Assembly (NCBI GenBank): GCA_902613795.1
Contig: CACMIP010000004.1
Coordinates: forward strand, 1-64,000
DNA from: an uncultured OCS116 cluster bacterium
GTDB lineage: Bacteria > Pseudomonadota > Alphaproteobacteria > Rhizobiales > TMED25
DNA length: 64,000 nt
Reading direction: 5' to 3'
Below are positions 61 to 42,322 of this stretch, piece by piece. Each line of letters begins with the position of its first letter. Position 1 is the stretch's first letter. Below the pieces are notes generated by a model that did not search any database, was not told where the DNA came from, and worked only from the letters and a program-made list of their open reading frames with translations. Made by a program: the position numbers and the translations under genes.

Positions 61-567
61 TTATAGTTTCAATAATTTATCACTAAATACTAGTTTTGCC
101 TTGTTAATATTTTGAATGGGTATTTTCACTTTATTATTTACCTCAGTTGACTTTGCGTCGGTGAGTAGTAAATAACCCTCTTGAAATCCAAAAATTTCAC
201 CTCTGTAATTTTTTTTATTTTCAATTTTCTCGATCAATTCTACCTTGACTTGATTACCGATATTTTGAATAAAGTCTTTCTTCCTAACTAAAATACGATC
301 AATACCGGGTGATGATATTTCAATTCTATAATTATCAGGTAATAATCTATTGGATTCAATCATTGGCATTATTACTCTACTAGCTTTGGTACAATCATTG
401 ATATTAAGCTCTCCTGATATTCGCTCCATCATAATTTGTAATGCCCTCTCGTGACTATTAATTTTTACTTGCACAATTAGATAACCAAGCTCTTTAAGCT
501 CTGACTCAATCAGGGAAGAAATTTTACTCTCTTCCAATGTTTCGTTGTTTATCCGAAGTTCTTCCAT
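61..567 (-). CDS. rimP: Ribosome maturation factor RimP
   Basis: RimP assists late maturation of the 30S ribosomal subunit in the cytoplasm. The protein has the family hallmarks: the ISSPGIDRIL segment near residue 85-95 joins the N-terminal alpha/beta domain to a small C-terminal Sm-like barrel, and total length (about 168 residues) is normal. I prefer the internal ATG at 567 (MEELRINN) over the ORF-track start at 591, because the longer start overlaps the T-tract of an upstream terminator and has no ribosome binding site. It is followed closely by nusA, its usual partner. Confidence 0.9.
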   Translation of the reverse strand: MEELRINNETLEESKISSLIESELKELGYLIVQVKINSHERALQIMMERISGELNINDCTKASRVIMPMIESNRLLPDNYRIEISSPGIDRILVRKKDFIQNIGNQVKVELIEKIENKKNYRGEIFGFQEGYLLLTDAKSTEVNNKVKIPIQNINKAKLVFSDKLLKL

Positions 568-667: not shown

Positions 668-1320
668 TTACAAGCTTATTTTTTTGAAAGTTAAATAGAC
701 TGGGTTTTGGTCATTTTTGATGGCTTTCTTTTCGTATTTTGAATGTGTTGACGGGTATGGCTTTTCTGTAAAATCAATACTTTTCTCACATATCCAATCA
801 AATCTATTATTATTGAGTGTATGTATCCTTTATGATCGCTAGCGATTAAGATCTTACCACTTTTTTTAAGTACCCTATGAAATTTATCTATATTATTAGG
901 ATTGATTAATCGTCTTTTGTGATGTCTTCTTTTAGGCCACGGGTCAGGAAATAATATGTAGATAGATGAGAGACAATAATCTGCCATGCTATCTAGAATA
1001 TTTATAGCGTCTTCAGTGCTAATCCTTATATTTTTAATTTGTTTCTGATTAACTTCCTTAATTAAGTTTATTGCACCACTTATAAATGGCTCAGCTCCAA
1101 TAAACATTTTATTTTTATTATTTAACGCTTGCCAGAGCAAATGTTCCCCATACCCAAATCCAATCTCAAATTCGATATTGTCTCCAATGGTGAGAATGGA
1201 CTCATCGTCAAGCTTGTACTTTGGTAATATATTTTTTAAAATATATTGACTATGAGTATTGAGAGAGCGGCTTTTTTTCCGACCATATAGCTTGGACACA
1301 TACGGACTATCATTTTTCAT
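668..1320 (-). pseudogene. trmB: tRNA (guanine-N7)-methyltransferase TrmB, with a frameshift near the C-terminus
   Basis: TrmB makes m7G46 in tRNA using SAM. The N-terminal part is typical: a YGRKKSR segment near the start, a degenerate SAM-binding IEFEIGFGYGEHL, and FPDPWPKRRHHKRR around residue 130. The open frame ends in an unrelated tail (QNTKRKPSKMTKTQSI, stop at 691). The next frame carries the expected TrmB C-terminus, FDWICEKSIDF then PYPSTHSKYEKKA and NPVYLTF, ending at 668. The switch is near 811-815, where one extra base in an A/T run would restore the frame. Start is the ATG at 1320 (MKNDSPYVSKLYG), two bases after the metK stop; the ORF-track start overlaps metK. Everything else in the operon is intact, so a sequencing or assembly error is at least as likely as a true mutation. 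Confidence 0.85.
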
Positions 1321-1322
1321 AA

Positions 1323-2492
1323 CTAAGAAAGTTCTGATAAAAGTTTTTCTGCTAAATCTAATTTTTCCCATGAGAATGAACCATCCTGATTAGGAGATCT
1401 ACCAAAGTGACCATAGCAGCTTGTTTTTGAATATATTGGATTTTTTAGTGATAGGTGATCAATTATCCCTTTTGGAGATAAATCAAGAATTTTCATTATT
1501 GCGTCAGATAGTTTTTTTGTATCTATATTAGCACTATTATCCAGTTTTAAATAAAATGACATAGGGTGGGAGAGGCCTATAGCGTAAGATATTTGAATTT
1601 GGCATTTCTTAGCTATTTTTGCGTGCACAATATTTTTAGCAATATATCTCGCCATGTAAGCGGCCGATCTATCAACTTTTGAAGGATCTTTTCCCGAGAA
1701 TGCACCACCACCATGTGGGGCGGCTCCGCCATAGGTATCCACAATGATTTTTCTGCCGGTAAGCCCTGCATCACCATCCGGTCCGCCAATGACAAATCTG
1801 CCTGTTGGATTAATTATTACATCATTATTATTTTTTATCCATCCTTCCGGTAAGACGGACAAAATAATGTCAACTAGTATGTCTCTCACGTGGCTATTTT
1901 CTGCGGACTCATTATGTTGGTTTGATACGAGAATTTTATCTGCCCTTACAGGGTAATCATTTTCATACAAAAGGGTCACCTGACTTTTTGCATCGGGTCC
2001 AAGCTCTGGCAAATTGCCCGCTTTTCTTTCAACAGATATTTTTGATAAAATTTGATTTGCAAAATAAAGAGGTGCGGGCATATAGCTATCAGTCTCATCA
2101 GTCGCATAACCAAACATTATACCTTGATCACCGGCTCCCTGGTTTTTGTTTTCTGTCTCCAAGACTCCTTGGGCAATATCTTCAGACTGCCCATGAATTT
2201 TGTCAATGATCTCAATCTTTTCCCAATGAAAATTTTCATCTTCATATCCAATATCACGAATGCAATTTCTTACAATAGCTTTAAGATCGATTTTTTCACG
2301 AAAATTTAAAAGGCTAGTTTCACCTGCCAGTACTACAAGATTAGATGTTACTAATGTTTCAATCCCTGCGCGTGCGTTTGGATCAAGAAGAATTAAATTG
2401 TCCAAAATTCTATCAGATAGTTGATCTGCAATTTTATCAGGGTGCCCCTCCGAAACAGACTCGCTTGTAAATAGGTAAGCGTTCTTTGACAT
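1323..2492 (-). CDS. metK: S-adenosylmethionine synthetase MetK
   Basis: Makes S-adenosylmethionine from methionine and ATP in the cytoplasm; the product feeds TrmB next door and the radical-SAM MiaB upstream. The sequence opens with LFTSESVSEGHPDKIADQ, has GAGDQGIMFGYA near residue 120 and the glycine-rich GGGAFSGKDPSKVDRSAAY loop near 265. The length of 389 residues is standard. It sits between lnt and trmB with 26- and 2-base gaps. I saw no SAM riboswitch in the short upstream gap, so transcription probably comes from further up the operon. Confidence 0.97.
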   Translation of the reverse strand: MSKNAYLFTSESVSEGHPDKIADQLSDRILDNLILLDPNARAGIETLVTSNLVVLAGETSLLNFREKIDLKAIVRNCIRDIGYEDENFHWEKIEIIDKIHGQSEDIAQGVLETENKNQGAGDQGIMFGYATDETDSYMPAPLYFANQILSKISVERKAGNLPELGPDAKSQVTLLYENDYPVRADKILVSNQHNESAENSHVRDILVDIILSVLPEGWIKNNNDVIINPTGRFVIGGPDGDAGLTGRKIIVDTYGGAAPHGGGAFSGKDPSKVDRSAAYMARYIAKNIVHAKIAKKCQIQISYAIGLSHPMSFYLKLDNSANIDTKKLSDAIMKILDLSPKGIIDHLSLKNPIYSKTSCYGHFGRSPNQDGSFSWEKLDLAEKLLSELS

Positions 2493-42290: not shown

Positions 42291-42322
42291 AAAGAATTAT
42301 CTCAAAATTATGGGCACAATGA

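Follow-up and report, generated by a model that had tools for sequence, protein, structure and literature searches.

A trmB gene probably lost through a recent 19-nt deletion in a marine alphaproteobacterium of the OCS116 cluster

Introduction

TrmB is the tRNA (guanine-46-N7)-methyltransferase (TIGR00091, PF02390). In the case of Escherichia coli TrmB, the mutants T217A and E220A show less than 10% of the activity, and the T217A mutation also disturbs tRNA binding (PMC10130221). Disruption of trmB in E. coli gives no phenotypic defect (PMC6320965).

Here we describe a trmB gene with a broken reading frame in an uncultured OCS116 cluster bacterium. The analysed DNA (64,000 nucleotides, hereafter the window) is the beginning of contig C4 of a 1.32 Mb genome, which is 97% complete. 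Among public genomes, its nearest relatives are marine MAGs and single-cell genomes assigned to the OCS116 cluster or to Rhodobiaceae. The comparison covers one genome per species, and the window allele comes from a single assembly.

Results

The minus-strand ORF 1371–691 was identified as TrmB from the ORF list and the Pfam match. The first 17 codons of this ORF overlap the end of metK, and in some relatives stops are present in the stretch matching these codons, with trmB intact from the equivalent ATG. Therefore, the start was placed at M18, the ATG at 1320. This ATG adjoins the metK stop, and the start position is common to the aligned relatives. The frame-0 remnant of trmB (691–1320, minus strand, 209 codons) then begins at this likely start and ends at an out-of-frame stop at 691. 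The gene order at the locus is lnt–metK–trmB–rimP, collinear with the close relatives. The upstream neighbour metK (1326–2492, minus strand; Pfam S-AdoMet_synt N/M/C) and the downstream neighbour rimP (61–567, minus strand; Pfam RimP_N and DUF150_C) are both intact compared with the relative G007.

The window TrmB matches the Pfam family Methyltransf_4 (PF02390) with an E-value of 8.3e-36 and 123.5 bits (cut-off 24). According to the TIGR00091 profile, it scores 110.6 bits and lies under the equivalog cut-off of 112.65 bits, whereas the five nearest relatives pass with 116.6–131.4 bits. No other PF02390 match above the cut-off is present in the genome, and a second functional trmB copy was rejected.

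The protein follows the family up to SDHKGYIHS, and the homology then ends. The family ending RFDWICEKSIDF...PYPSTHSKYEKKA...NPVYLTFKKISL is located in the -1 frame. This original C-terminus (671–829, minus strand; FDWICEK...SKYEKKA...NPVYLTFKKISL) is open and in register with the relatives, and the ancestral stop is just below 671. The -1 frame shows 82–95% nucleotide identity to the intact relatives over 129 nt, far beyond chance; the orphan fragment alone, a short query, gave no Pfam match. The first-pass annotation had described a frame break after SDHKGYIHS with the conserved C-terminus intact in the adjacent frame, and both the ORF frames and the alignment of the relatives agree with it. 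The frame-0 tail after the break (about 35–40 residues) results from reading the former coding sequence in the -1 frame and is unrelated to TrmB. The out-of-frame run stays open nearly to the original stop.

The five nearest relatives carry an intact trmB of 223 residues at the same locus, in one continuous frame and with no gap. Their protein identity to the window TrmB is 74–93% in the shared part. Among the genome contigs of 80 relatives, the C-terminal [ST][KR][YFH]..[KR] motif is in frame in 79, whereas in the window it occurs in the -1 frame only. Relatives that naturally end in the QNTKRKPSKMTKTQSI tail had been named beforehand as the observation that would speak against a frame break. 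This tail was found in none of the 80 relatives examined, and a natural alternative C-terminus was rejected. G001 is the one genus member that lacks a trmB match; this genome is only 77% complete, and metK was not recovered from it either. In the distant alphaproteobacterial MAG L115, the trmB match also stops early in frame (70 residues); a further broken copy or a fault in the assembly may account for this. A structure prediction of the TrmB of an intact relative, made from six sequences, gave a mean pLDDT of 36 and was too poor for use.

In the DNA alignment with the five relatives, a gap of 19 nt is observed at the identical location in each case. The deletion junction lies at about 799–811 (minus strand), and the breakpoint is ambiguous. 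The same 19-nt gap was recovered when the entire 64 kb was separately aligned with four relatives. When 60 nt at the junction were compared with the four closest relatives, 3–6 mismatches remained with a gap of 19 nt and 18–22 with a gap of 1 nt, and a single-base indel was rejected. The first-pass annotation had proposed that one extra base would restore the full-length protein. A one-base change fits only the frame arithmetic and not the homology, because the product is still six residues short; the lesion relative to five of five relatives is 19 nt.

A short direct repeat, GATTT, flanks one placement of the missing stretch. Two copies are present in the relative G005, and one copy is located at 800–804 of the window. 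With the gap placed at this repeat, the pre-shift residues SIIIDL remain aligned in frame 0 with SILLDF of the relatives. Compared with G005, this placement is one mismatch worse than the best placement, which has no such repeat homology. The direct repeat suits a slippage origin of the deletion and is no proof of it. As expected, no copy of the deletion junction was found in viral contigs.

When 70 ORFs of G007 were mapped onto the window, trmB was the sole gene split over two frames. This result indicates that the assembly is not generally ridden with indels. The lnt match has a stop in the last few codons only, corresponding to a slightly earlier natural end, and the last G007 ORF match is cut off by the window edge. 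The density of window-unique substitutions is no higher near the contig end, and poor sequence quality at that end was rejected. Of the 13 substitutions of the window lineage in trmB, 10 are nonsynonymous and 3 synonymous; the corresponding counts for the other genes are 286 and 569 (post hoc Fisher test, p = 0.0019). The upstream amino-acid changes in trmB are mostly conservative (L/I, E/D, T/S). The nonsynonymous lean fits relaxed constraint, and with 13 mostly conservative changes it is weak when taken alone.

Two other features of the window were observed in the same comparisons. Between 28000 and 48000, the unique substitutions fall to about 0.1–0.8%, compared with 2–3% over most of the rest, and the sequence is near-identical to G007. 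This region looks like a tract of recent homologous exchange of about 20 kb. At 42314–42319, extra DNA is present in the relatives G010 (about 2.6 kb) and G004 (about 3.8 kb), with otherwise collinear flanks.

Discussion

The close relatives have intact orthologues and the window trmB carries a disabling lesion, as would be expected of a pseudogene. We consider it highly likely that trmB is here a recent, lineage-specific pseudogene of the non-essential tRNA m7G46 methyltransferase, produced by the 19-nt deletion. This explanation builds directly on the deletion relative to the relatives, the split frame, the single copy and the intact neighbours. The ancestor would have carried an intact trmB, and 19 bp would have been lost near the 3' end in the window lineage, perhaps through slippage between short direct repeats. 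The out-of-frame deletion would exchange the end of the methyltransferase, including the T217 and E220 equivalents, for an unrelated tail. The loss would have been tolerated with the gene dispensable, and a young pseudogene would be left. This is ordinary recent gene loss with no new mechanism.

The out-of-frame part covers the positions aligned to T217 and E220 of E. coli TrmB, as assigned by motif (TKFE in E. coli, SKYE here). In the alignment of the L043–L047 clade, the T217 position is Ser (QSKYEKK), not Thr. With this segment lost, the window product very probably has no tRNA m7G46 methyltransferase activity, and the m7G46 modification would be absent in cells with this allele. As trmB is non-essential in the bacteria studied, with an E. 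coli mutant free of phenotypic defect, its loss should be tolerable. Any polar effect on rimP, which lies downstream, would be expected to be small, because the wrong frame is open nearly to the old stop.

The main alternative is that amplification, assembly or the choice of a rare variant removed the 19 nt, and that most cells have an intact gene. The trmB gene is located less than 1.4 kb from the end of the contig, with the junction only about 800 bases from window base 1 where contig C4 starts, and one genome per species was compared on the consensus sequence alone. Against such an origin stand the nonsynonymous excess in trmB, the lack of any rise in window-unique divergence towards the contig end, and the fact that no other gene of the window is interrupted. 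Moreover, a loss of 19 nt is atypical of short-read or homopolymer error, which counts against an artefact. We regard an artefact or a minority allele as unlikely, though it deserves more weight than the readings in which the gene still works.

The N-terminal motifs FPDPWPK, HHKRR and SDHK are intact, the new tail is basic, and the frame is open over nearly the whole former gene length. These features could suit a truncated TrmB that still functions, for example in tRNA binding without methylation or as a weak methyltransferase. However, the C-terminal segment with the T217 and E220 positions is lost, the tail is a mere by-product of the shifted frame and is shared with no relative, and amino-acid changes are in excess. 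A functional product is thus very improbable. Programmed -1 ribosomal frameshifting, which would join both frames, is more improbable still. The two frames overlap over 691–829, and the downstream one shows sequence conservation. Against this, the search for a slippery site that the first-pass annotation had advised found no correctly phased X_XXY_YYZ heptamer in the overlap. Furthermore, the two-frame layout is not conserved, with a single continuous frame in five of five close relatives, and even the shifted product is six residues short. The annotation had offered sequence error, fresh mutation and frameshifting. This set of options was the right one; frameshifting is disfavoured by the above results, and sequence error has become less likely with a loss that is not of the homopolymer type in a window free of other interrupted genes.

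If the pseudogene is real, it is a clean case of a tRNA modification gene that was recently lost from the small genome of a marine alphaproteobacterium, and it has little wider import. It also advises caution, since a frame break that looks arithmetically like one base may prove to be a larger deletion after the relatives are aligned.

Compared with TrmB proteins of the family (TIGR00091, PF02390), the window copy is ordinary to about codon 170, with FPDPWPK, HHKRR and SDHK kept, whereas the last 50 codons or so are out of frame as a result of the 19-nt deletion. Known so far from a single assembly, the locus has nothing distinctive among frameshift pseudogenes in bacteria. It resembles those of non-essential bacterial genes in that a single-copy gene carries one small out-of-frame deletion between intact neighbours.
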